Source: Acuticoccus yangtzensis
Lineage (GTDB): Bacteria > Pseudomonadota > Alphaproteobacteria > Rhizobiales > Amorphaceae
Reading direction: 5' to 3'
Assembly: GCF_001927245.1 (NCBI RefSeq)
Contig: NZ_MJUX01000009.1
Coordinates: forward strand, 62,001 to 126,000
DNA: 64,000 nucleotides
The notes below the pieces were generated by a model. It was given only the letters and a program-made list of their open reading frames with translations, searched no databases and was not told where the DNA came from. Every line of letters starts with the position of its first letter. The first letter of the stretch is position 1. The position numbers and the translations under genes were made by a program. Below, in pieces: positions 15,640 through 31,276 of this stretch.

Positions 15640-15988
15640 TAGGGGCCCATCACCCGGAGAGGCCGGCTCACGCGAACCCACCGGCAATCATACCAGCGCC
15701 CAAACCATCCGGACCACGGACTGTCATCACGAACCATGGCCCCGCGGCAGGGATGCCGAAGGGCGCGCCAAAGTTCATTTGAGGAAGACTATAGAGCGCT
15801 GAGGCCCTATGTAAAGTCGTGTACGGCCATAACATTTGCCATGCGGCCGTCCTGCCCTGGCCACGCTGGCTAAAATGCCGGGCGCCCCGGAATTATCTCG
15901 CAGCACATGCAGGAGGACGGCAAAACCGCCCCCGTTGTTATTGGTTCGCGCCCCGGCTTCACCAGCACAGCAGCGAGAAATACTTCAG
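15640..15988. other. Intergenic region between the two proX paralogues
   Basis: No gene is seen in 349 bp. It is less GC-rich than its surroundings near 15780-15840 and holds the candidate promoter for proX copy 1. Confidence 0.55.
15788..15815 (-). promoter_or_regulatory. Candidate sigma-70 promoter for proX copy 1
   Basis: Read on the minus strand: TTTACA, 16 bp, TATAGT. This is a good match to the -35/-10 consensus in otherwise GC-rich DNA and points at proX copy 1 with a leader of roughly 140 nt. Confidence 0.45.
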
Positions 15989-17014
15989 TTACTCGGTGAT
16001 GGATTTGGAGACCTTTTCAGCAACGTCCGCGGAAACCCAGCTCTTCCAGATGTCGCCATGGTTTTTCAAGAACACCGCCGCGGCCTCGTCGGGCGTGGCA
16101 TCCTCGTTGCGCATGTAGGCGAGGGCCGCGCTCGTCTCGGCGGCCGTGGTGCCGTAGGCCATGAAAAACTCGCGCAGAGCCGGAGCCGCCGCGGTGAACT
16201 CCGTATTGGCGCCGATGACGACGCGCGTCTCGGGATAGGCGGTCGCCTGCGTCGGCGTCTCCGCTTCCATCATCTCATCCCACACTGCTTGATCGAAGGG
16301 CGGCTCCTCCAGCTTCACGAAGTCGTACTTGCCGAGGAGCCAGGTGGGCGCCCAATGGTAGAAGAGGACCGGATCCTCACGCAGAACGGCCGACTCCACC
16401 GTCGCCGCCAGCGCCGCCCCGGCGCCCGGACGCACGTTGTTGTAGATCTCGTCGAGCCCGTAGGCGGTCAGCTTCTTGGTGTTCACCACCTCGCACTGCC
16501 AGCCGATGACGCAGTTGAGAAAGCGCCCCTTCCCCGGCTCTTCCGGATCGGCGAACAGGTCCGCATGGGCGGCGAGGTCGGCAACGGACTTGAGGTCCGG
16601 CGCGGCGGCCCCCTCCCCTTCGACGAGATAGCGCGGCACGAACCAGCCCTCGGTCGCGTCGGGGAAGGTGGCGCCGAGCCGCTCGACGGCGCCTTCGGCC
16701 TCCGCGTCGAGGAAGGCCTGCGCCGTGTTCGCGGTCCAAACCTCCATCAGGACATCGACGTCGCCGCGGCCCATGCCGGTGTTGAGCACCAGCGTGGTGC
16801 CGGGCACGACCTCGGTTTCGCAGCCATAACCGGCTTCGAGGATGGTCTTGGCGACAGCCGTGTGGAAGGCGGCGGAGTCGTAGTCGAGGCCGCCGAAGAC
16901 GACGGGGCGGTCGAGCCCGCCGCAGGTTTCGTCCTGAGCGGATGCGGGCGCCGCTGCGACGACGGCCAGCGCCACGGCGGCGCCCGTCAGGGTCAAGGTG
17001 GCACGCAGTGTCAT
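15989..17014 (-). CDS. Glycine betaine-type ABC substrate-binding protein (copy 2)
   Basis: A 341-residue paralogue of the neighbouring ProX with the same order of motifs: VVFGGLDYDSAAF, VPGTTLVLNTGMGRGDVDV, LMEVWTANT, FLNCVIGWQCEVVNTKK and VLFYHWAPTWLLGK. The signal peptide is MTLRAT...APASA|QD. Substitutions in ligand-contact stretches (WIPN to WTAN, YYWGP to YHWAP) suggest a related but different quaternary amine or proline betaine. It lies upstream of copy 1 on the same strand, so a tandem duplication is likely. No permease of its own is nearby; it probably shares ProWV. Confidence 0.9.
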   Translation of the reverse strand: MTLRATLTLTGAAVALAVVAAAPASAQDETCGGLDRPVVFGGLDYDSAAFHTAVAKTILEAGYGCETEVVPGTTLVLNTGMGRGDVDVLMEVWTANTAQAFLDAEAEGAVERLGATFPDATEGWFVPRYLVEGEGAAAPDLKSVADLAAHADLFADPEEPGKGRFLNCVIGWQCEVVNTKKLTAYGLDEIYNNVRPGAGAALAATVESAVLREDPVLFYHWAPTWLLGKYDFVKLEEPPFDQAVWDEMMEAETPTQATAYPETRVVIGANTEFTAAAPALREFFMAYGTTAAETSAALAYMRNEDATPDEAAAVFLKNHGDIWKSWVSADVAEKVSKSITE

Positions 17015-17995: not shown

Positions 17996-18868
17996 CTAGA
18001 GCGTGAAGGCCCAGGGCTCCTGGATCAGCCGGTAGCCCTCGCCGCCCCGCGTCATGCGGGCGAAGCCGGGGAAGTGGACATGCATGCCGCCGACCAACAG
18101 CCGATCGGCGATGACCATGTCGAACGTGCGGCGGCGGCTTTCGACGCCGCGCTCCGGCTCCCAGTCGAAGACCATCGCCGCGTCCGGCCGCGGCACCTGA
18201 ACACCCGGAATGTGCACCGTGTCGCCCCAGACGAGCAGGCTGTCCGCACCTCCGTCGACGAGGTAGCCGGTGTGGCCGGGCGTGTGGCCGGGGATCGGCA
18301 CCGCGGTCACGCCCGGAAAGACCTCGCCCGCGGCCCAGCGCAGGCGGTCCTTGTAGGGCGCCACCTGAGCCCGGCCCCATTCGAAATAGCGCAGGCGGCG
18401 GCGCGCGTCGGTCGCCGCCATCGCCACGTCGTCGTGCCACAGACGGTAGTCCGCCTCGCCCACCACCACCTCGGCGTTGGGGAACTGCGCCGCGCCGGAC
18501 GGCGTCAGAAGCCCCGCCGAATGGTCCGGATGCATGTGGGTGAGGAGGACGGTGTCGACCTCCTCGGGCGCCACCCCGGCCGCAGCGAGCGAGGCGGGCA
18601 GCCATCCGCATGTCGGCCCCATCCGGTCGGACGAGCCGGCGTCGATCAACGCCGTCCGCCCGCCGCTGCGCACCATGAAGACGTTCACCGCCAGGCGCGG
18701 CGGGACCGGCTGACAGCCCTTCGTAAGAAGTGCTGCCGCCTCGTCCGCCGACACGGCGTGGAAGATGTCGAGGCCGGAGTCGAGATATCCATCCGACAAC
18801 GTGGTGACGAGGGCGTCACCCACCCGGTGATGATAGACACCCGGCACCTGCTCCGACGGCAGCATCAC
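17996..18868 (-). CDS. MBL-fold metallo-hydrolase
   Basis: A 290-residue metallo-beta-lactamase-fold hydrolase with the dinuclear metal motif THMHPDHSAGLL, the His in IPGHTPGHTGYLV and a downstream His in PGFARM...VHFPG. The fold is like lactonases and quorum-quenching or thioesterase members, so it could hydrolyse a lactone or a thioester. The start is GTG at 18868, overlapping the TGA of the enoyl-CoA hydratase gene (GTGA), so the two are translationally coupled. It is the last gene of the caiB-ech-MBL operon; a CoA-thioester or lactone intermediate would suit that context. Confidence 0.85.
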   Translation of the reverse strand: MMLPSEQVPGVYHHRVGDALVTTLSDGYLDSGLDIFHAVSADEAAALLTKGCQPVPPRLAVNVFMVRSGGRTALIDAGSSDRMGPTCGWLPASLAAAGVAPEEVDTVLLTHMHPDHSAGLLTPSGAAQFPNAEVVVGEADYRLWHDDVAMAATDARRRLRYFEWGRAQVAPYKDRLRWAAGEVFPGVTAVPIPGHTPGHTGYLVDGGADSLLVWGDTVHIPGVQVPRPDAAMVFDWEPERGVESRRRTFDMVIADRLLVGGMHVHFPGFARMTRGGEGYRLIQEPWAFTL

Positions 18869-19680
18869 CGACCCTTGAAGTTGGCTTTGCGCTTCTCGTT
18901 GAAGGCGTTCACACCCTCGTGCCGGTCTTCGGTCGGCACCATGCGGTTATAGGCCTCGATCTCGAAGGCGAGCCCGTCCGACAGGCTCATGTCGAGGCCG
19001 CGCCCGATCGACTGCTTGATCTGCCGCACCGAGATCGGCGCGTTCTCGGCAATGCGCGTGGCCGTGGCGATGGCCGCCGGCACCAGCTCGTCCAGCGTGC
19101 AGACCTTGTTGACGAAGCCCCACGCCTCGCCCTCGGCCGCGGTGAAGGGCAGGCCCGTGAGCGTGATCTCCTTGGCGCGGCGCGAACCGACCGCGCGGGC
19201 GAGGTTCTGCGTTCCGCCTGCGCCGGGCATGATGCCGAGCGTCACTTCGGTCAACGCGAACTTGGCGGTGTCGGCGGCGTAGATGAAGTCGCAGGCCGCG
19301 GCGATCTCGCAGCCGCCGCCATAGGCCGCGCCGTTGACCGCGCCGATCACCGGGATCGGGCAGCCAACCAGCGCGCGCACGGTCCGCTCGAAGATCGCGT
19401 GCTGGGTCTGCCACGTCTCGTCAGACATGCCGCGGCGCTCTTTGAGGTCGCCGCCCGCACAGAAGGCCTTGTCGCCGCGGCCGGTGATGACGATGGCGCG
19501 CGCGCCGTCGGTCGTCACCTGGAAGCGCTCGAACAGGGCCATCAGGTCGAGGCCCATCTGCGTGTTCATGGCGTTGCGGGCGTCCGGCCGGTCGAGCACG
19601 ACCATGAGGACATGCTCGGCCGGGTGCTCCAGCGTCAGGGTCGTGAAGTCCGGCAGCGCCGGGGGCATCGGGAGCGTCAT
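18865..19680 (-). CDS. Enoyl-CoA hydratase/isomerase
   Basis: A 271-residue crotonase-fold enzyme. The oxyanion-hole segments are ITGRGDKAFCAGGDLKE and NGAAYGGGCEIAAACDF. The glutamate of ALTEVTLGIMPGAGGTQNL occupies the acid/base position of hydratases (Glu144 equivalent). It hydrates a 2-enoyl-CoA. The ATG at 19680 overlaps the stop of caiB (ATGA), and its own stop overlaps the MBL start, so the three genes form a tightly coupled operon. Confidence 0.9.
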   Translation of the reverse strand: MTLPMPPALPDFTTLTLEHPAEHVLMVVLDRPDARNAMNTQMGLDLMALFERFQVTTDGARAIVITGRGDKAFCAGGDLKERRGMSDETWQTQHAIFERTVRALVGCPIPVIGAVNGAAYGGGCEIAAACDFIYAADTAKFALTEVTLGIMPGAGGTQNLARAVGSRRAKEITLTGLPFTAAEGEAWGFVNKVCTLDELVPAAIATATRIAENAPISVRQIKQSIGRGLDMSLSDGLAFEIEAYNRMVPTEDRHEGVNAFNEKRKANFKGR

Positions 19681-20801
19681 GCCTTGATCCTTTGATCGTG
19701 TTGGCCGAGTGCGGGTGCGGGAATCGTGGCGCGCGGCCGTTGACCATCCATCGTCAGCGGCACGCCCATCAAGGTGAGGCCGTCCGCTTCGACGCTCATT
19801 TTCAGCGCCTCGGTCTGCGGATGGCGCGACACGGCGTCCACCGACAGGAGCGGCGAGTTCGGCACGCCCACCTCGTCGAGCGCGGCGGCGAGTTCGTCGA
19901 ACCCGCGCGCGGCGACGGCATCGGCGATGATGGGAATGAGCCGTTCGCGATGGGTCACACGGCCGGCATTGGTCGCGTAGTCCGGGTCATCGGCCAGGCC
20001 GAGCCCGAGCACGCGGCAGAGCTTGGCGAAGAGATTGTCGTTGCCGGCGGCGATCATCATCCAGCCGTCTTTGGTCTGGAAGGCCTGGTAGGGGCAGATC
20101 TCGGCGACGCCCGAACCGTAGGGCTTACGCACCTGGCCGTCGGCCTCGTACCCGGCGAGGGGCACGGTCATCCAGGCGAGGCCGGTCTCGAACAGCGAGG
20201 TGGTGATGCGCGCGCCCTCGCCCGACTTCTCCCGCGCGAACAGCGCCGCCAGCATGCCGATGACGCTCCACATGCCGGAGCCCATGTCGACCAGCGACAC
20301 GCCGACGCGCACCGGCGGGCGGTTGCCTTCGCCGGTCACGCTCATGATGCCGGACGTCGCCTGCGCCAGCGGGTCGTAGCCCGGCTTGGCGGCGAGCGGG
20401 CCGGCGGCACCGAACGCGCCGAGGTCGCACCAGATGAGGCGCGGCCGCTGGCGGCGGATCTCGTCGGGATCGAAACCGAACTTGTCGAGGATGCCCGGAC
20501 GCAGGTTCTGGATGACGGCGTCGGCTTCCTCGGTCATGAGGCGGCGCAGGTGTGCCGCGTCGGCCGGGTCGCCCAGGTCGATGGTGATCCCTTCCTTGCC
20601 GCGGTTGAGAGCGGCGAAGGCGGACGCCGTATCGTGCCAGAACGGCGGCCCCCAGCCGCGTGCATAGTCCCCCTTGCCGGGGTTTTCGACTTTGATAACG
20701 CGCGCGCCGAGATCGGCGAGAATCATTCCCGCGTACGGCGCTGCGACGCTGTGACCGAGCTCGATAACTGTCACGCCGTCGAGCGGCTTTGTGGCGTCCA
20801 T
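19677..20801 (-). CDS. CaiB/BaiF family CoA-transferase (class III)
   Basis: A 374-residue class III CoA transferase, which moves CoA between a donor such as succinyl-CoA and a carboxylate. The ATG at 20801 follows a GAGG site and gives the usual N-terminus (LDGVTVIELGHSVAAPYAGMIL). LADLGARVIKVENPGKGDYAR is the CoA-binding signature. The catalytic Asp lies in VGVSLVDMGSGMW. This is the first gene of a three-gene operon whose promoter region carries a LacI-type operator. It likely activates the acid imported by the nearby TRAP system. Confidence 0.91.
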   Translation of the reverse strand: MDATKPLDGVTVIELGHSVAAPYAGMILADLGARVIKVENPGKGDYARGWGPPFWHDTASAFAALNRGKEGITIDLGDPADAAHLRRLMTEEADAVIQNLRPGILDKFGFDPDEIRRQRPRLIWCDLGAFGAAGPLAAKPGYDPLAQATSGIMSVTGEGNRPPVRVGVSLVDMGSGMWSVIGMLAALFAREKSGEGARITTSLFETGLAWMTVPLAGYEADGQVRKPYGSGVAEICPYQAFQTKDGWMMIAAGNDNLFAKLCRVLGLGLADDPDYATNAGRVTHRERLIPIIADAVAARGFDELAAALDEVGVPNSPLLSVDAVSRHPQTEALKMSVEADGLTLMGVPLTMDGQRPRATIPAPALGQHDQRIKA

Positions 20802-20856
20802 CCCAAACCTCGTTTCTGGTTGGCCGCACACTAGGGTGGCGTCCGGCGCCGGGTCA

Positions 20857-20870
20857 ATATAACGTTTCAT
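20857..20870. promoter_or_regulatory. LacI-family operator O1 in caiB/acs divergent promoter
   Basis: ATATAACGTTTCAT on the plus strand (ATGAAACGTTATAT on the minus strand), a palindrome centred on CG as is typical of LacI-family sites. On the caiB side it runs straight into TTGACC, followed after 18 bp by TAGTGT, a plausible promoter. The same 18-bp block GTCAATAWAACGTTTCAT occurs at 30629-30646. Confidence 0.75.
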
Positions 20871-20953
20871 GAGAAAATCGCCGTCCCGACCTGTTCGGTG
20901 AAATAACACCGGGGCAGCGCTTGACGCTGCGCCCGAACAAGGGAGATCGCCTC

Positions 20954-22510
20954 GTGAACCCGATTGCATGGCAAAACGAATGGGCGCCCGCCGCCGCGCG
21001 GTTCGCCGACCATGCGGCCGTCGTCGATATGGAAGGCGCGACCACCTATCGTGACATCTTCGCCGCCGCCGCCGGGATCGCAAACGCCCTCGGTGATCTG
21101 CCCGCAGGCAGCGTCGTCGCCACCTTGATGCCGAACAGCCGGCACGCGGTCGCCGCAGGCTACGGCGTCGCCCTCGCAGGGCTGACGGAAGCGGCGATCA
21201 ATCCCGCACTGTCGTCCGACGAGATCATTCACTGCATCAATCTGGCCGGAGCAGCGCGGGTTTTGACCGTCCCCGAGGTGGCCGCCAAGGTCCGCGGCGC
21301 CGTGCCGGTGGTCGACCCGCGGGGGCTGGCCTCGATGCCGCTCTCGGCCCTCGCCCCCGTCCCTGTCGCGGCGGATGCGCCGGGGCGGATCATCTTCACC
21401 TCCGGCACCACGGGGATGCCGAAGGGCATCGTTCATACCCATGGCGGGCGCTGGCTCGCCAACATCCTGCAGCGCGCCTCGCTGCAGGTCGCGCCGGTTC
21501 CGGGCCGCAACGTGCTGCTGATGACGCCCTATTCGCATGGCGCCAGCCTCGTCACCCAGGCCTTCCTCGACGGCGGGGCGACGGTGACACTGCTTCCCGG
21601 CATCGACCTGCCGCGAATCACCGAAGCGTTGGAGCAACGCACGCTCGACCAGATCTTCGCCTCGCCCACCGTGCTGACGCGCTTCGTGGATGAGTTCGCC
21701 GGCCGCAGGTTCGATCACATCCGCGCGATCTACACGGGGACCGCGCCGCTGTCGTCCGAGCTTTATCATGAGGTCAAGGCGATCTTCGGGCCGGTCGTGC
21801 GCCTCACCTACGGCAAGACCGAGGTAGTCAATCCGATCACCGTGCTGACGCCGGAGGAAACCGACGCCTTCTACACCTCGCCCGCGGCGGCGCCGTCCAA
21901 CTGCGTCGGCTGGCCGGCGAGCGGGGTCGAGGTGGCGTTCGGCGAGGCCGACGAGGGCGACGCCGCGGCGAGCGCCGGACCGGACGCACCGCGCCCGATC
22001 CTGTTGCGCGCACAACACATGCTCGCCGCCGAAATCGGGCCGGGCGGCACGAAATATCTCGCGCCCGGCGAATTCCACCGCACCGGCGACCTCGGCTTCA
22101 TGGACGAGGCGGGCCGTCTGCACCTCTCGGGGCGCGAGGCGGACGTGATCAAGACCGGCGGGTACCGCGTGACCCCGGACGAGATCGAGGCGCTTCTGCG
22201 TCCCGCCATGCCGGGCGGCGAACTCGTCATCATTTCATTGCCTTCGCGCGATTGGGGCGAGGTGATCACCGCGGTGGCGGCCGGTGCACCTGCCGGCTGG
22301 CAGGACGCGCTCAGCCCCGCGCTGGAGGCGATGACGAAGCACAAGCGCCCGCGCCTCTTCGCCGAACTCGACGCGATCCCGCGCAACGGGCTCGGCAAGA
22401 TCGTCCGCCGCCGCACGCGCGATGCGGTGCTGGAACACTATACTTTCGTCGACGGGCGCTACCCGGCGCTGACCCTTGCAAGCGAGCCGGCGGATGTTGA
22501 CAGTGCTTGA
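20954..22510 (+). CDS. AMP-dependent acyl-CoA synthetase/ligase
   Basis: A 518-residue adenylate-forming ligase. The GTG at 20954 is chosen because AAGGGAGA lies 7-8 bp upstream; the frame opens at a TTG 11 codons earlier without a ribosome site. Motifs: IIFTSGTTGMPKGIVHTHGG, LTYGKTEV, HRTGDLGFMDEAGRLHLSGREADVIKTGGYRVTPDEIE and C-terminal IPRNGLGKIVRR with the catalytic Lys. It activates a carboxylic acid with ATP and CoA. It is divergent from caiB across O1, so both a CoA-transferase and a CoA-ligase are under the same control, as seen in pathways with two acid intermediates. Confidence 0.88.
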   Translation: MNPIAWQNEWAPAAARFADHAAVVDMEGATTYRDIFAAAAGIANALGDLPAGSVVATLMPNSRHAVAAGYGVALAGLTEAAINPALSSDEIIHCINLAGAARVLTVPEVAAKVRGAVPVVDPRGLASMPLSALAPVPVAADAPGRIIFTSGTTGMPKGIVHTHGGRWLANILQRASLQVAPVPGRNVLLMTPYSHGASLVTQAFLDGGATVTLLPGIDLPRITEALEQRTLDQIFASPTVLTRFVDEFAGRRFDHIRAIYTGTAPLSSELYHEVKAIFGPVVRLTYGKTEVVNPITVLTPEETDAFYTSPAAAPSNCVGWPASGVEVAFGEADEGDAAASAGPDAPRPILLRAQHMLAAEIGPGGTKYLAPGEFHRTGDLGFMDEAGRLHLSGREADVIKTGGYRVTPDEIEALLRPAMPGGELVIISLPSRDWGEVITAVAAGAPAGWQDALSPALEAMTKHKRPRLFAELDAIPRNGLGKIVRRRTRDAVLEHYTFVDGRYPALTLASEPADVDSA

Positions 22511-22530
22511 GCACGTCGGCACTCTTTCTA

Positions 22531-22544
22531 ATGAAACGTTATAC
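22531..22544. promoter_or_regulatory. LacI-family operator O2 upstream of the lacI-type gene
   Basis: ATGAAACGTTATAC on the plus strand has the same left half and CG centre as O1 and O3. It lies 205 bp upstream of the regulator start and 20 bp after the acs stop. Its position suggests autoregulation. Confidence 0.65.
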
Positions 22545-22748
22545 AAGTTCGGGCCAGCGTCTCCCTCGGGACCAACGCAAGGCCCGGCGGAACGGGAGGA
22601 AGCGTGCGGCGTTCCGCCCTGCTATGTCACCCCCTCTGTCGACCGAGCCTGCATGAAACCTGCACGTCCGGGTGCGGCCCTGTCCGGCCGTCCATCAGCA
22701 GGGGGCGCACAGGCGGGGTAAAGGCTGCAGGCGGGAGAGCAGGACCGG

Positions 22749-23777
22749 ATGAATAAACGGCGCGGTGGACCCACCATCAAGGACGTCGCCGAAGCGGCAG
22801 GCGTCTCCATCGGCACCGCCTCGCGCGTCATCAACAAGAAGGCGACGGTGCGGCCCGAGATCCGCACCGCCGTTCTGTCGGCCATCGACAAGTTGAACTA
22901 TCGCCCGAACGCCGTCGCCCAGTCGATGCGCCGCAATTCCACGCAGCTCATCGGCTGCATCATCCGCGAGATCAACATTCCGTCGCTGGCCGCCTTCGTG
23001 CGCGCCACCCACGACGTGCTAGATCAGGCCGGCTACTCCCTCGTCATCTCCAATTCGGAGGGGATCCGCGAGCGCGAGATCGAGCTGATCGACCGGCTGG
23101 GGCGCCAACAGACGGACGGGGTGATCCTCGGCCCCTACAGCGCGGTCGACGGTGAGTTCGAGAAGGTGCTGCGCGACTTCGGCAGCCCGATCGTTCTCGT
23201 CGACCGCGACACGCCGGCCTGGTGCGATGCCGTGATGGCCGACCACGCCGGCTCGATCGAGGCCGCCACCACCCGGCTGTTGAACCTCGGCCACCGCCGC
23301 ATCTGCATCCTCACGGGTCAAACCGGGCTCTACCCGGCGCGCGAGCGCGTTCGGGGCTATCGCCGCGCCTTCGAGCGGGCGGGGCTGCCGGTGGACGAGA
23401 CCTACGTGCGCACCACCGGCTTCCTCGCCAACGAGGGGTTCCGGCACACCTCGTCCATGCTCGGCTCGGCCGTTCCCCCGACGGCGATCATCGCCGGCGG
23501 CATCGACATGCTGGCCGGTGTCCTGCGCGCGGTCCGGGTGCGAGGCCTGCGGATCCCGCACGACGTCTCCGTCATCGGGTCAGGCGAATCGGAGCTGGCG
23601 GAGCTGCACAGCCCGCCGGTCAGCATTCAGCGCTGGGATCAGGCGGAAATCGGCCAGACCGCCGCTCATCTGCTGCTGCGGCGCATATCCGGCGACCGCA
23701 CCAGCCCGCCGGAACACGTGCTCCTGCCGGCCGAGTTCGTCGAACGCGGGTCCATCGGCCCGCCCTCGGCAGGCTGA
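22749..23777 (+). CDS. LacI family transcriptional regulator
   Basis: A 342-residue regulator. The N-terminal LacI headpiece is clear: TIKDVAEAAGVSIGTASRVIN (HTH) followed by the hinge helix NYRPNAVAQSMRR. The rest is a periplasmic-binding-protein-like sensor domain (IGCIIREINIPSLAAF, GVILGPYSAVDG, RICILTGQTGLYPARERVRGYRRAFE, DVSVIGSGESELAELHSPPVSIQRWDQ). The ATG at 22749 follows GGAGAGCAGGA. Three matching palindromes in the window identify its probable sites: before caiB/acs, before itself, and before the lyase-TRAP operon. The inducer is unknown, perhaps the TRAP substrate or a CoA ester of it. Confidence 0.92.
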   Translation: MNKRRGGPTIKDVAEAAGVSIGTASRVINKKATVRPEIRTAVLSAIDKLNYRPNAVAQSMRRNSTQLIGCIIREINIPSLAAFVRATHDVLDQAGYSLVISNSEGIREREIELIDRLGRQQTDGVILGPYSAVDGEFEKVLRDFGSPIVLVDRDTPAWCDAVMADHAGSIEAATTRLLNLGHRRICILTGQTGLYPARERVRGYRRAFERAGLPVDETYVRTTGFLANEGFRHTSSMLGSAVPPTAIIAGGIDMLAGVLRAVRVRGLRIPHDVSVIGSGESELAELHSPPVSIQRWDQAEIGQTAAHLLLRRISGDRTSPPEHVLLPAEFVERGSIGPPSAG

Positions 23778-23911
23778 GGAGACGGGACAACCCGTCCACC
23801 AAAATCCGGAACTTTGCGCCGCTGACACCGGAGCGGACGGCGTCGCGCCCAGTCCATCGCGGTCCTGCTTTTGCGGAGAGCCGAGCGCACCGCTGACGCA
23901 CAACATAAAGC

Positions 23912-23940
23912 GTCCCCGGCGCCATGACGGCGCAGGGGAC
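23912..23940. terminator. Hairpin 1 between lacI and dctM
   Basis: GTCCCCGGCGCC pairs with GGCGCAGGGGAC with one mismatch around a short loop, in the gap between convergent genes. Confidence 0.6.
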
Positions 23941-23947
23941 GAAGTGA

Positions 23948-23971
23948 GCCGGGCCGGCGCACCGGCCCGGC
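23948..23971. terminator. Hairpin 2 between lacI and dctM
   Basis: GCCGGGCCGG, loop CGCA, CCGGCCCGGC: a perfect 10-bp stem directly before the dctM stop codon. There is no T-run. With hairpin 1 it probably ends transcription of the long leftward operon. Confidence 0.65.
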
Positions 23972-23981
23972 AGGGGGAAGC

Positions 23982-25262
23982 TCAGCCCAGAACCAGCGTC
24001 GGGAGCCACAGGGACAGGCCCGGCATGACCATCACCGCCAGCAAGAGCAGGGCGATCAGCACGACGAAGGGCCAGATCCCGGCGATCACCTCGGCCAGCG
24101 GGGCTTTGGTGATGGAGGACAGGACGAACAGGTTCAGTCCCACCGGCGGCGTCAACAGCGCCAGCTCCATGTTGATCGTCACGATCACGCCGAACTGGAT
24201 CGGGTTGATCCCGAATTCCGGCAGCAGCGGGATCAAGACCGGCAGCGCGATGAGGAGGACCGAGAAGACCTCCAGGAACATGCCGAGGACGAAGAAGAGC
24301 AGCGTCACGAAGACCAGGAAGGTCGCCGCGTTCAGCTCCTGCGCGCGGGCGAAGTCGACGATGGCCGCGGTGGCCCCGCTCTCCGTCACCCAGTGGCCGA
24401 AGATCAGCGCCGTGACGATGATGATCATGATCGTCGCCGCGTTGCGCGTGGCGAGCGCGATCAACGGCACCACCCCGGCGATCGACACCGTCCGGTAGCA
24501 GATGATGCTGACGAGGATGGCCGCGACCGCCGATAGCGCCGCCGCCTCGGTCACCGTGGCGATGCCGCCATAGATGCCGCCGAGCACGATCACCGGAATG
24601 GACAGCGCCGGAAGGGCCCGCAGGTTGGTCGCGACGAAGTCCCCGCGCGACACGGACTGCCCGGCGTTGAAGCGATACCCCTTGCGGCGGGCGTAGAAGA
24701 TGATCCAGCCCGAGATCAGCAGTGCCTGCAGGATGCCGGGGATGACACCGGCGAGGAACAGGCGCGGCACCGATTCGTCCGCCAGCACCCCGTAGACCAC
24801 CATGGCGAGGCTGGGCGGGATGAGGATGCCGAGCGTGCCCGAGGATCCGACGATGCCGGCCGCGAACTTGCGCTCATAACCCTCACGCAGCATCGCCGGC
24901 ACGAGGATGGTGCCCATGGCGAGCGCCGTGGCGACGCTGGAGCCGCACATCGCCGCGAAGATGGTGCAGGCGATGACGCAGACGATGCCGAGCCCGCCGC
25001 GCACCTGGCCGACCCAGGACAGCGCCGCGTCGATCAGCGCCTTCGCGACGCCGCCGCGTTCCATGAACGTCGCCGCGACGACGAAGAAGGGCACCGCGAT
25101 CAAGGTCTGCGAGTTCAGCTCGTCGACGATCTTTTGCGTGACCGCGATCATCGGCGTGTCGGCGACGAACAGCAGCACCGCGGCCGTGACGCCGAGGACG
25201 AGGTAGATGGGCAGGCCCAAGATGAGGAGGCCGCCGCCTCCGGCTACGAGTGCGGCATTCAT
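23982..25262 (-). CDS. dctM: TRAP transporter large permease DctM
   Basis: A 426-residue membrane protein with about a dozen hydrophobic helices. Family signatures include VPFFVVAATFMERGGVAKALIDAA, CGSSVATALAMGTILVPAM, GSSGTLGILIPPSLAMVVYGVL and TPPVGLNLFVLSSI near the C-terminus. It is the ion-coupled channel of a tripartite ATP-independent importer. The ATG at 25262 overlaps the dctQ stop (ATGA). It is the last gene of the operon. Confidence 0.94.
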   Translation of the reverse strand: MNAALVAGGGGLLILGLPIYLVLGVTAAVLLFVADTPMIAVTQKIVDELNSQTLIAVPFFVVAATFMERGGVAKALIDAALSWVGQVRGGLGIVCVIACTIFAAMCGSSVATALAMGTILVPAMLREGYERKFAAGIVGSSGTLGILIPPSLAMVVYGVLADESVPRLFLAGVIPGILQALLISGWIIFYARRKGYRFNAGQSVSRGDFVATNLRALPALSIPVIVLGGIYGGIATVTEAAALSAVAAILVSIICYRTVSIAGVVPLIALATRNAATIMIIIVTALIFGHWVTESGATAAIVDFARAQELNAATFLVFVTLLFFVLGMFLEVFSVLLIALPVLIPLLPEFGINPIQFGVIVTINMELALLTPPVGLNLFVLSSITKAPLAEVIAGIWPFVVLIALLLLAVMVMPGLSLWLPTLVLG

Positions 25263-25858
25263 ACCGGGTCCTCCTCGGCCATGTCGTTGGGGGCTTTCCA
25301 GCCGGCCAGGATGCCGACGACCGCCGCCACGTGGCCGATGGCGATCAGCGCCGCCGATACGGGGAGCGCCGCATAATAGATCCACAAGGGGAAGCGCAGT
25401 GCCGTGGCCGACACGTCCCCGAAGTCCCACGCCTCGAAGGCGACGGCATAGCCGTAGCGCGCCAGGAAGACGGCGAAGGCCACGCCGATGACGTTGGCGA
25501 GAATCTCAAGGCCCGTCTGCACCACGCGCGGCAGAAGCGTGACGACGAGGTCGGCACGGATATGGCGCCGCTCGCGCGTCACGCGGCCGACCGCCAACAG
25601 CACCGCCCACATGACGATATAGACCGTCAATTCTTCGGTGATGTGCGGTGCATATTCGGGCGCGAACCAGCGCAGGACGACGGTGTAGAGCACCAAGGCC
25701 AGCGCGCCGCCGACCATCAGCCCCGTGACCCAGACTTCAAGTCCGGTCCAGAAGGTGGCAAAGGCCCGCGCGGCGCGCACGAGCGGTGATGCGCTGCCGC
25801 CGCGTTCACGCGCGGCGGCAGCGCCAGGCCCTGAGGCCGCCTCAGTCGATGAGGCCAC
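25259..25858 (-). CDS. dctQ: TRAP transporter small permease DctQ
   Basis: A 199-residue protein with four hydrophobic helices, including GLMVGGALALVLYTVVLRW, ELTVYIVMWAVLLAVGRVTRERRHIRADLV and LWIYYAALPVSAALIAIGH. The ERRHIRADLV segment is typical of DctQ. The GTG start at 25858 overlaps the 3' end of dctP by 17 bp. It pairs with DctM in the membrane. Confidence 0.92.
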   Translation of the reverse strand: MASSTEAASGPGAAAARERGGSASPLVRAARAFATFWTGLEVWVTGLMVGGALALVLYTVVLRWFAPEYAPHITEELTVYIVMWAVLLAVGRVTRERRHIRADLVVTLLPRVVQTGLEILANVIGVAFAVFLARYGYAVAFEAWDFGDVSATALRFPLWIYYAALPVSAALIAIGHVAAVVGILAGWKAPNDMAEEDPV

Positions 25859-26864
25859 GCTCTTTCAGCTCTTCCATGGTGAAGGCGACCAGCTCGGGAT
25901 CAATCTCCATCTCGCTGACCAGGCCGTCCTGCAGCGGCATCAGCTTGCGCCGTGCCTCGGCGAGCGCCTCGTCGGTCGGCGTCGTCATGCCCATGCCTTC
26001 GGACACCAGCTTCTCACGCGCGCGAAGCTGCGCGTCGGCGGCCATCTTGCGCTCTTCCGGCACCGTCTCGGCCCACGCCTCGGTGATCGCCGCCTGCACC
26101 TCGGGGTCGAGATCGTCCCAGAAGCGCGAGGAGATCATCGGCACATATTGGCTGAACCACTGCTTGTCTTCGAAGGCGTGGGTCAGGCCGGAATCCCACA
26201 GCTGCGCGCTGACGATGCTTTCGTGCGTGGAGGACACCGCGTCGACCACGTTGGACGACAGCGCCAGCGGCACGTCCGGCCATGCGATCATGTTCGGAAC
26301 GCCGCCGAAGCCTTCGACGCGCGTGGCATTGGCCGTGCCGCCGGAGATGCGGACCTTGAGGTTCTGCATGTCGGCGTGCGTCTCGATCGGCGCACCAGTG
26401 GAGTAGTAGTTCGAGAAGCCGAGGTTGAACCACGGACCGGGGATGTGGACCCGCAGACGCTCTTCGGCGGTGGCGTTGATCTTCGCGCCGACCTCGCCGT
26501 CCATCAGCTCCAGAGTGACCTCTTCGGGAAGGCCGTAGAACATCGGCAGGGAGGAGAGGCCGAAGCTCGGAACGGTGCCGTCGAGCACCCAGGTGCCGGG
26601 AATGGCCATCTCGACAGCGCCCTGGCGCAGCGCGCGCGCCACGTCACGGTCGCGGTAGAGCTGAGCCGACGGGTAGACCTCGACGGTGAGCTTGTCGCCG
26701 GCCTTCTCGCGCAGCTTCTCGGCGAAGATCTCCACCGCCTTGTTGCGCACGTGGCTGGGGTTCGTGTCGAGCGAGATCCGCATCGTCTGCTGCGCGGCGG
26801 CGGGTCCGGCGAGGCCAAGCCCGAGGGCAAAGGCCGCGGTGATGCGGACAATCGGTAACGTCAT
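25842..26864 (-). CDS. dctP: TRAP transporter substrate-binding protein DctP
   Basis: A 340-residue periplasmic binding protein. The signal peptide is MTLPIVRITAAFALGLGLAGPAAAQ. DctP motifs follow: TNPSHVRNKAVEIFAEKLREK, VEVYPSAQLYRDRD, MAIPGTWVLDG, and MQNLKVRISGGTANATRVEGFGGVPN with the conserved Arg that salt-bridges the substrate carboxylate. That Arg indicates an organic acid ligand. A strong GGAGGAAA site precedes the ATG. It lies 53 bp after the MmgE/PrpD gene in the operon. Confidence 0.93.
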   Translation of the reverse strand: MTLPIVRITAAFALGLGLAGPAAAQQTMRISLDTNPSHVRNKAVEIFAEKLREKAGDKLTVEVYPSAQLYRDRDVARALRQGAVEMAIPGTWVLDGTVPSFGLSSLPMFYGLPEEVTLELMDGEVGAKINATAEERLRVHIPGPWFNLGFSNYYSTGAPIETHADMQNLKVRISGGTANATRVEGFGGVPNMIAWPDVPLALSSNVVDAVSSTHESIVSAQLWDSGLTHAFEDKQWFSQYVPMISSRFWDDLDPEVQAAITEAWAETVPEERKMAADAQLRAREKLVSEGMGMTTPTDEALAEARRKLMPLQDGLVSEMEIDPELVAFTMEELKERGLID

Positions 26865-26917
26865 GGAATTTCCTCCGGTTTATCGTTCCCCTGCCTCTGT
26901 GGGCAGGTATCTCGGTG

Positions 26918-28276
26918 TCAGTGGGGCGTCGCCAGCGGCAGGTCGCGCAGGGACGCAAGGTCGGCGATGTTGAGGAGCGTCGTGCACAGCGTCTCCGCTT
27001 CGGCGGCCGACATGCGGCGCGTGGCGCAGTCCATGAACTTCGCGCGCAGCTCCGTCTCGGTCAGGCGGCGCTCCCAGCTTCCCTTCGCGTGGGCCACCGG
27101 GTCGACCTCGAACCGCTTGCCGCCGGCCATCACGGTGACCGAATCGGTGGGGGCGAAGGCGGTGCCGGGGGCTTCCTTGTCGCCGACGGAGCAGACGACC
27201 TTCTCCATCGCCGCCATCACCTCGGGCCGGTTGACGAACTCGTCCGTCAGTTCCGACAGGCCGACGCGGCGGGCGACCAGCGCGGACGCCATGGCGAATT
27301 CCATCGAGAATTTCGCCTCCAGCCCGGTCTTGGGCTGGTGATTGCGCAGGGTGACGAGCGCGGTGTTGCCCGCCTTCACCTGCACCTCGTCGATATCGTC
27401 CGGCGTCAGGCCGTTCGTCTCGACGATTTCGAGCATGGCGTCGATCGCGCGGTGGGCGAAGTAGCACACCGGGTAGCGCTTCACGTTGACGCCGAGGTCC
27501 GGCAGCCGCCACTTTTCGCCGAGGGCGTGGTCCTTCTCGGCAAGGTCGGGCGTGCCGGAGGGGGAGTGCGCGCGCATGAAGCCGGTCTGGTGCTCCAGCG
27601 CGTCGGGCGAGCCGGTGAAGCCGTCCTTGGCGAGACGGGCGGCGATCACGCCCGCCTGCGCCGCGCGGCCGGCGTGCAGCGGCTTCGTCATCGTGCCGAA
27701 GTTGGCGACGAGGCCGGACGCCAGCGATGCGCCGATGGCGATGGCGTTGGCCGTCTGCTCGGCGCTGAGCTTGTTGAGGTGGGCGCAGGCGGCGGCGGTG
27801 GCGATGGCGCCCCAGGCCGCGGTCGGGTGGAAGCCGCGCTCGTGCAACTGGCCGGGCTCGAGCTCCTTCAGAAGCGCCCAGATCTCGTAACCGATCACGT
27901 AGGCGTTCAGCGCATCGCGGCCGGACGAGCCGAGCGCCCAGCCTTCGGCGAGGATCGCCGGGGCGAGCACCACGGACGTGTGGCCGTCCATCGCCACGTC
28001 GTCATAGTCGAGCGCGTGGCCGGCGACGCCGTTGACGAAGGCGGCGTCCTGCGCGCTGAGATTGCGGCCCGACGGGATCTGCGGCGCGCCGGTGTTGGCG
28101 GTCGACGTCTCGACGAGACGCGCGGCGATCTGCGCGCACGGCTCGTTGGAGCCTGCGATCATGACGCCGACGCAATCGGCGATGCCGATGATCGCCGCAT
28201 CGAGCGCGGCGTCCGGCACGTCGGTCAGCGGATAGTTGGCCGCGAAGGCGGCCGTTTGGCGGGTCAATCCGTCCAT
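26918..28276 (-). CDS. MmgE/PrpD family protein
   Basis: A 452-residue member of the MmgE/PrpD family, which includes 2-methylcitrate dehydratase and cis-aconitate (itaconate-forming) decarboxylase. Typical motifs are FVNGVAGHALDYDDVAMDGHTSVVLAPAILAEG, GYEIWALLKELEPGQLHERGFHPTAAWGAIATAAA and LKRYPVCYFAHRAIDAMLEI-like sequence. It probably catalyses a hydration/dehydration or decarboxylation of a tricarboxylate-like or branched acid. It lies 11 bp after the acyl-CoA dehydrogenase gene. The exact reaction cannot be read. Confidence 0.9.
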   Translation of the reverse strand: MDGLTRQTAAFAANYPLTDVPDAALDAAIIGIADCVGVMIAGSNEPCAQIAARLVETSTANTGAPQIPSGRNLSAQDAAFVNGVAGHALDYDDVAMDGHTSVVLAPAILAEGWALGSSGRDALNAYVIGYEIWALLKELEPGQLHERGFHPTAAWGAIATAAACAHLNKLSAEQTANAIAIGASLASGLVANFGTMTKPLHAGRAAQAGVIAARLAKDGFTGSPDALEHQTGFMRAHSPSGTPDLAEKDHALGEKWRLPDLGVNVKRYPVCYFAHRAIDAMLEIVETNGLTPDDIDEVQVKAGNTALVTLRNHQPKTGLEAKFSMEFAMASALVARRVGLSELTDEFVNRPEVMAAMEKVVCSVGDKEAPGTAFAPTDSVTVMAGGKRFEVDPVAHAKGSWERRLTETELRAKFMDCATRRMSAAEAETLCTTLLNIADLASLRDLPLATPH

Positions 28277-28287
28277 GGCGAAACCTC

Positions 28288-29481
28288 TCAGTAGGAGCGC
28301 GGCAGGCCGAGCACTTTGGTGCTCAGGAACGCGAGGATCATGTTCGAGGAAATGGGCGCGGTCTGGTAGAGCCGGGCCTCACGCCATTTGCGCTCGACGT
28401 CGTATTCCTTGGCGAAGCCGAAGCCGCCGTGGACCATCAGCGCCGCTTCGGCCGCCTGCCAGGTGGCCTCGGAGGCGAGGAGCTTCGCCATGTTGGCGTC
28501 CGCACCGCAGGGCTGGCCGGCCTCGAACAGAGCGGCGGCGCGGCGGGACATCATCTCGGCCGCCTCGAGCGAGGCGTAGGCGCGGGCGAGCGGGAACTGC
28601 ACGCCCTGGTTCTGGCCGATGGCACGGCCGAACACGTTGCGCTCGTTGGCGTAGGAGACACCCTTGTTGAGGAGCCACTTGCCGTCGCCGATGCACTCCT
28701 GCGCCACGAGGATGCGCTCCGCGTTCATCCCGTCGAGGATGTACTTGAAGCCCTTGCCCTCTTCGCCGATGAGGTTTTCGGCGGGCACCTCGAGATTGTC
28801 GAAGAACACCTCGGTGGTGTTGTGGTTGATCAGCGCGTCGATCGGCTTGATCTCGCAGCCGTTGCCCTTCGCCTCGCGCAGGTCGACGAGGAAGACGGAC
28901 AGCCCGTCCGTGCGCTTCTGGCACTCGGCGGCGGGCGTCGTGCGGGCCAGCAGCAGCATCAGGTCGGAATACAGAGCGCGCGAGGTCCAGACCTTCTGGC
29001 CGTTGACGATGTATTTATCGCCCTTGCGCTCGGCGCGGGTCTTGAGCTGCGTGGTGTCGGAGCCGGTGGTCGGCTCGGTCACGCCGAAGGCCTGCAACCG
29101 CAGCTCGCCCGAGGCGATGCCGGGAAGATAGCGCTGCTTCTGCTCCTCGCTGCCGTGACGCAGCAGGGTGCCCATGATGTACATCTGCGCGTGCGCCGGG
29201 CTCGCGGTGCAGCCGGAGGCGTTGATCTCTTCGAGGATCACCGCGGCGGCGCGCAGCGGCAGGCCCGAGCCGCCGTATTCTTCCGGGATCAGCGCGCCAA
29301 GGAAGCCGCCCTCGGTCAGCGCCTTCACGAACTCGGACGGGTAGGACGAGGTCTCTTCGAGCTTGCGCCAGTAGGCGGGCGGGAAGTCCTCGCAGATGCG
29401 GCGGACGGCTTCGCGCAGATCGCCGAAGTCCTCGCCGAGGGCGACCGTCACTTCCGACAGGTCGGTGGGCATCATGTTCAT
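28288..29481 (-). CDS. Acyl-CoA dehydrogenase
   Basis: A 397-residue flavoprotein that oxidises an acyl-CoA to the 2-enoyl-CoA. Visible motifs include FGVTEPTTGSDTT (FAD/substrate), KVWTSRALYSDLM, GKGFKYILDGMNAERILVA and the C-terminal MVHGGFGFAKEYDVERKWREARL. The usual C-terminal YEGT glutamate is replaced (YQTAPISS), while a Glu is present in GMNAERIL, the position of the catalytic base in isovaleryl-CoA and long-chain acyl-CoA dehydrogenases. This hints at a branched substrate. It lies 12 bp downstream of the lyase gene in the operon. Confidence 0.92.
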   Translation of the reverse strand: MNMMPTDLSEVTVALGEDFGDLREAVRRICEDFPPAYWRKLEETSSYPSEFVKALTEGGFLGALIPEEYGGSGLPLRAAAVILEEINASGCTASPAHAQMYIMGTLLRHGSEEQKQRYLPGIASGELRLQAFGVTEPTTGSDTTQLKTRAERKGDKYIVNGQKVWTSRALYSDLMLLLARTTPAAECQKRTDGLSVFLVDLREAKGNGCEIKPIDALINHNTTEVFFDNLEVPAENLIGEEGKGFKYILDGMNAERILVAQECIGDGKWLLNKGVSYANERNVFGRAIGQNQGVQFPLARAYASLEAAEMMSRRAAALFEAGQPCGADANMAKLLASEATWQAAEAALMVHGGFGFAKEYDVERKWREARLYQTAPISSNMILAFLSTKVLGLPRSY

Positions 29482-29493
29482 GGCGGGCTCTCC

Positions 29494-30423
29494 TCAGGCG
29501 GCCTGGCGGTGGTGGGTGGCGAAGGTCTTCGGCAGGCCCGACTGGGCGATCTGACCCGTCACCCGCTCGTCCGGCAACCACCCCGCGACGGTGTGCTGCA
29601 GCTCGACCAGCGCCTCGATGTCGATGCCGGTGGCAAATCCCATCGCCTCGGCGAGGAATGCGGCGTCTTCCAGGTTGATGTTGCCCGATGCGCCGGGCGC
29701 GAAGGGGCAGCCGCCGAGGCCGCCGATGGACGCATCGAACCTGCGCACGCCCACCTCCAGCGCGGCCGCCATGTTGGCAAGGCCGAGCCCGCGGGTGTCA
29801 TGCAGGTGCAGCAGCACCGGGATGTCCCCCACTTCCTTCATGACGCCGGTCAAGATGCGCTTCATCTGAGCCGGATTGGCGTAGCCCACGGTGTCGGCCA
29901 CGATGATCTCGTCCGCGCCGAGGCCGACGAGCTCGCCGGCGATCTCGAACACGCGCGCTTCGGGAACCTCACCCTGGATGGTGCAGCCGAAGGCCGTGGC
30001 GATGCCGGCGGCGAGGATCGTCTTGGGCGCCTTCTCGTTGCGCAGCTCCACGATGCGGCCGAAATCGTCGATCGAGGCCTGAGTGGAGCGGCGGATGTTG
30101 GCGAGGTTGTGCTCCTCGCTCGCCGAGAGGACGTAGTTCATCTTCGGGATGCCGAGGTCGAATCCGCGCTCGGCGCCGCGGCCGTTGGGGATCAGCGCCG
30201 ACGGAAGATAGCCGGGGATCGACAGGGTTCCTGCGGTGACCGCCTCGGCGTCGGCGAACTGGGGCGCGATCTTGGCGGGGACGAGGGAGGTGATCTCCAC
30301 CTCCGGCACGCCCGCGGCGACGACGCGGCGGCACCACTCGATCTTCTGCTCGGTCGGCACGATGGATTTGACCAGCTGCAAACCATCGCGCAGGCCGACA
30401 TCGCGCAAGATAACGTTTTCCAT
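29494..30423 (-). CDS. Hydroxymethylglutaryl-CoA lyase family protein
   Basis: A 309-residue DRE-TIM aldolase. The ATG at 30423 is set by GGAGAGGG eight bases upstream; the frame is open further but not protein-like. HMG-CoA lyase catalytic features are intact: RDGLQ with Arg12 and Asp13, LLHLHDTRG (metal-binding histidines), and the Cys loop GGLGGCPFAPGASGN. It cleaves a 3-hydroxy-3-methylglutaryl-CoA-like thioester to acetyl-CoA and an oxoacid; citramalyl-CoA-like substrates are also possible. It is the first gene of a six-gene operon behind operator O3. In context, the operon ends a chain-shortening pathway. Confidence 0.9.
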   Translation of the reverse strand: MENVILRDVGLRDGLQLVKSIVPTEQKIEWCRRVVAAGVPEVEITSLVPAKIAPQFADAEAVTAGTLSIPGYLPSALIPNGRGAERGFDLGIPKMNYVLSASEEHNLANIRRSTQASIDDFGRIVELRNEKAPKTILAAGIATAFGCTIQGEVPEARVFEIAGELVGLGADEIIVADTVGYANPAQMKRILTGVMKEVGDIPVLLHLHDTRGLGLANMAAALEVGVRRFDASIGGLGGCPFAPGASGNINLEDAAFLAEAMGFATGIDIEALVELQHTVAGWLPDERVTGQIAQSGLPKTFATHHRQAA

Positions 30424-30895
30424 GCCCTCTCCTATCGCTGCACGACACGGGATTTGGAAGCGCCCCACCGTCGACAGGCCGCCGTGGCCTTTCGGTGATG
30501 TTCCCCGAACGGGAAATTCCGGCGAACTCCGCTGTTGTTGGTCACAGCGGGGAGTTGGCCGGGGCGCACTCGCGAACGTGCAGCGTCTTGATCTTCTTTC
30601 CTCGACGGTAGGTCCCGGGCCGCGCCGTGTCAATAAAACGTTTCATATCGCGCTCCTATGGCACGATTCGAACACGCTGCAGGCATCGCGTAGATTTAAG
30701 TGATTGAAAGGACGGGGAAAGCGCAAATAGGTGCCGAGACACCTGGACAAAGGGTGCGATCCGCTCAGCCACTCGCCTCCGTGCGTCGCGTTGCCCCAGA
30801 GGACTTCGGCCTCCTGCGGCCGCTCCGGGCCGCCCGGCGCGGCCTTTGACGGCGCTGAATGCGCGCGGGGCGAGGAGGGCAGGACGGCGCCGATC
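30424..30895. other. Regulatory/non-coding region upstream of the lyase-TRAP operon
   Basis: No protein gene is seen in 472 bp. It contains operator O3 and an adjoining TTGACA promoter element. A conspicuous block at 30650-30785 holds an AT-rich core (TAGATTTAAGTGATTGA at 30691-30707), a small hairpin AGGTG-CCGAGA-CACCT (30729-30744) and tRNA-like fragments. The purpose of that block is unclear. Confidence 0.5.
30633..30646. promoter_or_regulatory. LacI-family operator O3 and promoter of the lyase-TRAP operon
   Basis: ATAAAACGTTTCAT on the plus strand (ATGAAACGTTTTAT on the minus strand). On the minus strand it is followed directly by a perfect -35 box TTGACA, then 17 bp and TACCGT. The combined ATGAAACGTTWTATTGAC block matches O1 at 17 of 18 positions. 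Confidence 0.75.
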
Positions 30896-31276
30896 TCAAT
30901 GCGTCGGTGCGCGGCCCAAGGCGGTCTCGAGACAGGCGATGATAGCCCGGTCCTGCACCGGCTTCTCCAACACGCACAAAGCCCCGCCTCGCAATGCCCG
31001 GCGACGCACCTGCTCGTCCCCGTACGAGGTGACGAAGATGATCGGCGGTGCACTCTTCTCACAAGCGAGGCGGCGTTGCAGATCGAGCCCGTTCATGCCG
31101 GGCATCTGAACATCCAGGATGAGGCAGGCGAGACCGCCGAGGTCGGACGCGCCGAGATAGTCGTCCGCCGTCGCGAAGACCGCGGCGCGGTAGCCCAGCG
31201 AGCCGACGAGATCCCGCAACGCCTCGCGCATGGATGCGTCGTCGTCGACGATGGCGACAAGCGGGGGAGCTGACAT
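30896..31276 (-). CDS. Single-domain response regulator (FixJ-type receiver)
   Basis: A 126-residue receiver domain with no output domain: VAIVDDDASMREALRDLVGSLGY (acidic pocket), phospho-Asp in CLILDVQMPGMNGLDLQ, switch Ser/Thr in IIFVTSYGD and Lys in VLEKPV. The start at ATG 31276 gives a normal N-terminus; a GTG ten codons upstream is possible. The receiver is FixJ-like. No kinase is adjacent; the kinase gene at 32780 is the nearest candidate partner. Confidence 0.87.
   Translation of the reverse strand: MSAPPLVAIVDDDASMREALRDLVGSLGYRAAVFATADDYLGASDLGGLACLILDVQMPGMNGLDLQRRLACEKSAPPIIFVTSYGDEQVRRRALRGGALCVLEKPVQDRAIIACLETALGRAPTH

Follow-up and report, generated by a model that had tools for sequence, protein, structure and literature searches.

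A predicted local LacI-family regulon for uptake and CoA-dependent breakdown of a branched dicarboxylate in Acuticoccus yangtzensis

Regulators of the LacI family are known mainly from sugar metabolism. Of the 182 LacI groups with an assigned pathway, 176 control carbohydrate metabolism; as exceptions Ravcheev et al. (2014, PMC4052901) name nucleoside regulators, NtdR and PurR. Branched dicarboxylates are broken down in Pseudomonas aeruginosa by the products of the cluster PA0878-PA0886, which encodes Ict, Ich, Ccl, an acyl-coenzyme A (CoA) dehydrogenase, an MmgE/PrpD isomerase, a lactonase and a putative transporter (PMC9875883). We analysed a 64,000-nucleotide stretch of the Acuticoccus yangtzensis genome (contig NZ_MJUX01000009.1, positions 62,001 to 126,000; hereafter the window), in which three similar 14-bp sites surround a lacI-type gene at 22749-23777. 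We consider it probable that these sites are operators of the encoded LacI-family protein, and that they define one local regulon for tripartite ATP-independent periplasmic (TRAP) uptake of a branched short-chain dicarboxylate, or of its lactone, and for its degradation through CoA esters, repressed when the effector is lacking. Our search of a literature library without subscription papers returned no publication on this regulon.

The locus resembles the local LacI-family regulons described in PMC4052901 in its regulator, which combines a LacI helix-turn-helix domain with a periplasmic-binding-like domain, in its even, CG-centred palindromes, in autoregulation as judged by position and in its clustered targets. 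It differs from the carbohydrate-dominated majority in that the targets are enzymes of CoA thioesters and a TRAP carrier. PA0878-PA0886 is the nearest enzyme set that we found, as an acyl-CoA dehydrogenase, an MmgE/PrpD protein, a putative lactonase and a transporter are clustered in the window too. Unlike that cluster, the window has a lyase of the 3-hydroxy-3-methylglutaryl (HMG)-CoA lyase type, a crotonase-type hydratase and a LacI-type regulator, and in place of the 127-aa Rdo protein of PA0878-PA0886 (PMC9875883) it has a putative lactonase with a metallo-beta-lactamase (MBL) fold. PckR of Rhizobiales, likewise an alphaproteobacterial LacI-type protein, controls central carbon genes globally and was predicted to repress or activate according to site position (PMC4052901); the window regulator, by contrast, looks like a single-locus one.

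The three sites are as follows.

20857-20870, minus strand: operator 1, ATGAAACGTTATAT, between the divergent genes caiB and acs; a caiB-proximal site is also present in the relatives G005, G002 and G022.
22531-22544, plus strand: operator 2, ATGAAACGTTATAC, upstream of lacI, 5 bp past a -10-like hexamer.
30633-30646, minus strand: operator 3, ATGAAACGTTTTAT, upstream of the lyase-TRAP operon.

The original prediction gave the coordinates and strands of all three exactly. It also described them as palindromes with a CG-centred core of LacI type; the core holds, and the palindromes are imperfect, with 6, 5 and 4 of 7 complementary pairs at sites 3, 1 and 2, respectively (counted by eye). The full palindrome ATGAAACGTTTCAT occurs in some relatives. 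Every site counted below has the core AACGTT, which the neighbourhood and promoter-geometry scans demanded in exact form. An 18-bp block, ATGAAACGTTWTATTGAC, is found at two of the three sites, with TTGAC abutting the operator as had been claimed; site 2 is arranged otherwise and lacks this junction.

The motif is rare. With up to two mismatches it has four matches in the window, namely the three operators and operator 3 on the opposite strand, versus 0.07 expected, a count reached by none of 100 shuffles. Exact ATGAAACGTTWTA occurs in the 5.04-Mb host genome (assembly completeness 96.22%) at the three operators only, with one further place at one mismatch. A looser pattern finds the same three at zero mismatches and adds two scattered places, C12:374248 and C22:322720, at one. 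The reversed-pattern control gave no match in the host genome with either pattern, and the motif is thus not common at random genomic positions. We rejected the one-mismatch place C28:211334 as a fourth operator, as it is the ATG AAA CGT TTG start of a solute-binding-protein gene lying closely 3' of another gene. A symmetric matrix was also built from 15 site strings of relatives, one or a few per type. The window's own sites were excluded, some strings came from the same-genus genomes G005 and G002, and strings identical to window sites were included. It scored 29.7 at 30633, 27.8 at 20857 and 23.8 at 22531. The best remaining score in the 64 kb was only 9.9, and we therefore agree with the earlier statement that there is no fourth copy in the window. 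The weak place at 30408 (9.7) was rejected because it coincides with the start codon of the lyase gene. The maximum over 40 simulated windows was 18.3, so that none of the 40 reached the weakest operator.

The sites are conserved together with the regulator. A search of 150 genomes at an E-value cut-off of 1e-60 matched lacI in 8, host included. The orthologs in G005, G002, G022 and G004 have 57-88% identity; the LacI proteins of G147, G094 and G024 (38-40%) are probably not orthologs. A named collection added loci with 47-55% LacI identity from Rhizobium, the Ochrobactrum group, Paracoccus, Methylobacterium and Bradyrhizobium. Whole genomes were scanned for 15 of the 20 ortholog loci with at least 47% identity (left out were L013, which is the G002 genome, L018, L024, L027 and L028), and all 15 have a site with at most one mismatch near the lacI ortholog. 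There are 13 exact sites, in 13 of these genomes, and every one is on the lacI contig near lacI: about 11 kb upstream (before livK in the loci read) or, in Bradyrhizobium, about 95-107 bp before lacI. The remaining two genomes have one-mismatch sites at corresponding positions. Elsewhere in the 15 genomes we counted 26 one-mismatch places versus 45 control rows (the control counts strands). A scan limited to about 10 kb around lacI had shown no site in the Rhizobium, Paracoccus, Ochrobactrum and Methylobacterium group, because there the operon begins with liv ATP-binding cassette (ABC) genes about 11 kb upstream, where the genome scan found the site.

The genes next to these sites correspond as well. 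In 15 of the 19 loci from L014 to L032, genes for CaiB, crotonase, HMG-CoA-lyase-like, acyl-CoA dehydrogenase, MmgE and MBL proteins lie ahead of lacI; the other four are L028, on a short contig, and the three Bradyrhizobium loci. In both G005 and G022 a site precedes caiB and another a second TRAP operon, and G005 has a further one before the lyase gene. The sites of G002 stand before mmgE and caiB. The site is thus kept before orthologous genes in the close relatives, Rhizobium, the Ochrobactrum group, Paracoccus and Methylobacterium; in Bradyrhizobium it is kept before lacI, and G004 is the exception. In three Methylobacterium species and Rhizobium smilacinae a second operator lies 150-153 bp farther upstream, ahead of the liv-caiB operon (L085 2857/3008, L086 2809/2959, L087 444/594 and L093 2455/2608), and looping between the paired operators is possible.

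Among the three relatives at 38-40% identity, one has a strong site 4 kb before lacI (score 25.7), one a weaker site (16.4) and one none. The strong site, GTGAAACGTTTCAT, lies at 5436-5449 of L065, before the 39%-identical LacI-family gene of G147, and a regulon related to that of the window may share the operator there.

The regulator matches PF00356 with 63.8 bits (cut-off 27) and PF13377 with 119.7 bits (cut-off 26.5), that is, a LacI helix-turn-helix domain and a Peripla_BP sensor domain. Its recognition-helix stretch, VS[I/T/V]G[T/S][A/V]SRV, is common to all 13 aligned sequences. We found only two other LacI-family genes in the host genome, whose helices read VSKSTVSRA and VSTATVSRA. A CG-centred even palindrome is common across the LacI family (PMC4052901), and on that ground the sites could belong to another LacI paralog or to some unrelated factor. 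The distinct helices of the two paralogs and the tracking of the motif with this regulator's ortholog in 15 of 15 genomes make such an assignment very unlikely, and they favour the single regulator for all three sites that had been predicted.

The putative promoters are listed below; each call rests on TTGAC, an imposed 17-nt spacing and conservation.

20829-20857, minus strand: putative caiB promoter, TTGACC, 17-nt spacer, CTAGTG; its -35 box and operator 1 overlap by one base.
22497-22525, plus strand: putative lacI promoter, TTGACA, 17-nt spacer, CACTCT; homologous to the promoter of the hydantoinase-TRAP-lacI operon of G005.
30605-30633, minus strand: putative promoter of the lyase operon, TTGACA, 17-nt spacer, TACCGT; its -35 box and operator 3 overlap by one base.

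We compared these with sites of at most two mismatches in 15 loci and with 7 sites of G005, G002 and G022, labelling the operon-nearer site as structural where a locus has two. All 19 structural promoters have the same join of ATGAAACGTTWYAT to TGAC, in which TTGAC overlaps the last base of the operator, versus none of the 10 other sites (3 at lacI or TRAP2 promoters, 4 distal and 3 from Bradyrhizobium). Their -35 boxes are TTGACA in 14, TTGACC in 3 and TTGACG in 2. The spacers of the caiB and lyase promoters match at 12 of 17 bases by eye, as they might if one promoter had arisen by duplication of the other. Over the 19 promoters, however, spacer identity averages only 34%, which indicates that the promoters diverged while the join of operator and -35 box was kept. 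Together with the null windows, this makes chance or inherited promoter repeats without a regulatory role an extremely improbable source of the sites.

We propose that, as long as no effector is present, a dimer sitting directly upstream of the -35 box would keep RNA polymerase from the promoters of caiB and of the lyase operon, and that a dimer near +1 would repress lacI itself. A compound of the pathway would release the repressor. Operator 2 and its counterparts in G005 and G022 start 34, 34 and 30 bp past the start of TTGACA, which would place this type of site near +1, a classical repressor position. Autoregulation is suggested by position alone, as operator 2 and the Bradyrhizobium sites lie upstream of lacI. 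A local repressor is favoured by the default of the family, by the near-perfect -35 boxes and by the +1-proximal site at lacI.

Alternatively, the protein might be a dual regulator, which would repress its own promoter from about +1 and act on the structural ones as a class II activator, from about -41.5. If a 17-nt spacer and a start 7 nt past the -10 hexamer are assumed, the operator centre is indeed at -41.5 in the structural promoters. The register of operator and TTGAC is identical in all 19, the assumed -10 hexamers are weak, the operator is placed differently at the lacI-type promoters, and PckR offers the precedent mentioned above. Promoters that depend on class II activators tend to have poor -35 boxes, whereas those of the 19 promoters are near perfect. 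The exact register would be expected even without selection, because operator and -35 box have a base in common and no neutral linker lies between them. We regard dual action as unlikely. Less likely still is its fuller form, in which the regulator would sense not a sugar but a branched organic acid (or its lactone or CoA ester), activate catabolic promoters from a fixed -41.5 and repress its own, and in which Hyphomicrobiales and Paracoccus would have conserved the composite of operator and -35 box.

Several observations weigh against the local repressor that we prefer. A centre at -41.5 is also a classical activator position. With the 17-nt spacer imposed rather than found, the hexamers at the assumed -10 match TATAAT at only 2.05 of 6 positions on average, and a stock sigma-70 scan of 20500-31000 returned no promoter. 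The 19 promoters are not independent, the three of the Ochrobactrum group being almost identical. The regulator falls below the search cut-off in 4 of the 7 other listed genomes of the host genus and is present in 3. G004, with a 57%-identical ortholog, has no exact site in its genome, and the best place within 40 kb around its lacI scores 12.4 and is 7 kb off; those 40 kb contain crotonase and MBL genes, and the contig begins 10 kb from lacI. Finally, three Bradyrhizobium loci (L029-L031) have the operator about 95-107 bp before lacI, but the target genes were not found within 10 kb. The neighbours in one of them, L030, include an FAA-hydrolase fragment and a PPDK-like protein.

Operator 2 appears to have a history of its own. 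Its equivalents in G005 and G022 are followed by a roughly 7-kb operon that encodes hydantoinases A and B and contains TRAP genes and lacI (families called by Pfam in G022 only). An alignment of the window with the G005 promoter starts at the end of acs, spans operator 2 and reaches the first codons of hydantoinase A, with a score of 95 (100 shuffles, at most 34); a separate alignment at the start of lacI scores 77 (no shuffle above 25). For the hydantoinase A of G022, the best match that the host genome offers has just 41% identity. From the alignments and this poor match, the hydantoinase-TRAP operon was probably lost in the window lineage, leaving the operator before lacI. The interval 22545-22749, between operator 2 and lacI, resembles a scar left by deletion of the operon, which in two relatives still lies between acs and lacI. 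Service as a dedicated lacI operator would be a secondary role of operator 2, since the site apparently derives from the promoter of a larger operon ending in lacI.

The genes assigned to the regulon form three groups: three on the minus strand from 20801, the ligase gene followed by lacI on the plus strand, and six on the minus strand from 30423.

17996-18868, minus strand: MBL-fold hydrolase of the lactonase / methyl parathion hydrolase group (family match and solved relatives).
18865-19680, minus strand: enoyl-CoA hydratase, crotonase (family match).
19677-20801, minus strand: CoA-transferase family III (CaiB/BaiF), start taken as ATG 20801.
20954-22510 (open reading frame, ORF, 20921-22510), plus strand: AMP-binding acyl-CoA ligase (acs), divergent from caiB, start taken as GTG 20954.
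22749-23777, plus strand: LacI-family regulator, 342 aa (PF00356 and PF13377; orthologs and alignment).
23982-25430, minus strand: TRAP large permease DctM (ORF); the true start is probably near 25.3 kb.
25259-25858, minus strand: TRAP small permease DctQ (ORF; family match).
25842-26864, minus strand: TRAP solute-binding protein DctP (family match; solved relatives are TRAP dicarboxylate binders).
26918-28276, minus strand: MmgE/PrpD family protein (nearest solved relative, iminodisuccinate epimerase).
28288-29481, minus strand: acyl-CoA dehydrogenase (family match).
29494-30423, minus strand: HMG-CoA lyase-like gene, first in the lyase-TRAP operon (family match and solved relatives).

The original prediction linked about ten genes over 10 kb. 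One regulon still describes them, and its predicted extent is about 11 genes and about 12.6 kb (17996-30646), because the crotonase and MBL genes come after caiB. Beside it lie two neighbouring genes for OpuAC-type binding proteins (14581-15687 and 15989-17014), with 51% identity over 335 aa.

The enzymes suggest a route through CoA thioesters. CoA would be transferred onto the substrate by CaiB or the ligase; dehydrogenation by the acyl-CoA dehydrogenase, hydration by the crotonase and cleavage by the HMG-CoA-lyase-like enzyme would follow, with the MmgE/PrpD protein acting as isomerase and the MBL protein as lactonase. The solved relatives of CaiB are the CaiB/BaiF proteins 4ed9 and 4hl6 and, third, succinate-hydroxymethylglutarate CoA-transferase (SUGCT). 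Those of the MmgE/PrpD protein are iminodisuccinate epimerase and bacterial IRG1, and those of the MBL protein are hydrolases named organophosphorus or methyl parathion hydrolase, and lactonase. In the long ORF 29494-30633 the lyase reaches 251.7 bits with PRK05692 (cut-off 246), and its solved relatives 6nds and 1ydo are HMG-CoA lyases; its true substrate may differ from HMG-CoA. The host genome has four other HMG-CoA-lyase-like genes (36-41% identity), for which reason the window gene is probably not the housekeeping lyase. Among the best 25 NCBIfam matches per protein, those of the CoA enzymes are below the cut-offs, save for the HMG-CoA lyase subfamily model, and gave no substrate assignment.

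We infer from this gene content that the regulon probably serves branched-dicarboxylate catabolism. Since a lyase of the HMG-CoA type and a crotonase are present, the substrate would be one carbon longer than that of the P. aeruginosa cluster, and a C6 compound such as 3-methylglutarate or 3-methylglutaconate would fit better than itaconate. In Falsochrobactrum (L016, 11144-17428), the genes past lacI encode two old-yellow-enzyme-type flavin mononucleotide (FMN) oxidoreductases, an Asp/Glu racemase family protein, a second MmgE/PrpD protein and an acyl-CoA ligase; this set of genes hints that the substrate there is unsaturated.

The GND and GYDD stretches of RbsR, at positions that usually contact the ligand in the LacI family, align to GGI and GSGE in the window regulator, and all 13 aligned orthologs keep GG[I/L]D and lack FDD. 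As the usual contact residues are replaced, the effector may not be a sugar; an organic acid is the candidate.

Overall, the regulon is well supported and its wiring is ordinary in kind; its predicted pathway is unusual for the LacI regulator family. The analysis provides a regulator-operator pair and a single-locus regulon for a catabolic pathway present in several alphaproteobacterial groups. The boundary of the regulon (CaiB, crotonase, HMG-CoA-lyase-like enzyme, acyl-CoA dehydrogenase, MmgE, MBL protein, ligase, and TRAP or ABC uptake) narrows the search for the substrate, and the fixed geometry of operator and -35 box turns the choice between repressor and activator into a clean question. 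If the effector is an organic acid, this regulator would extend a family known mostly for sugars and nucleosides.

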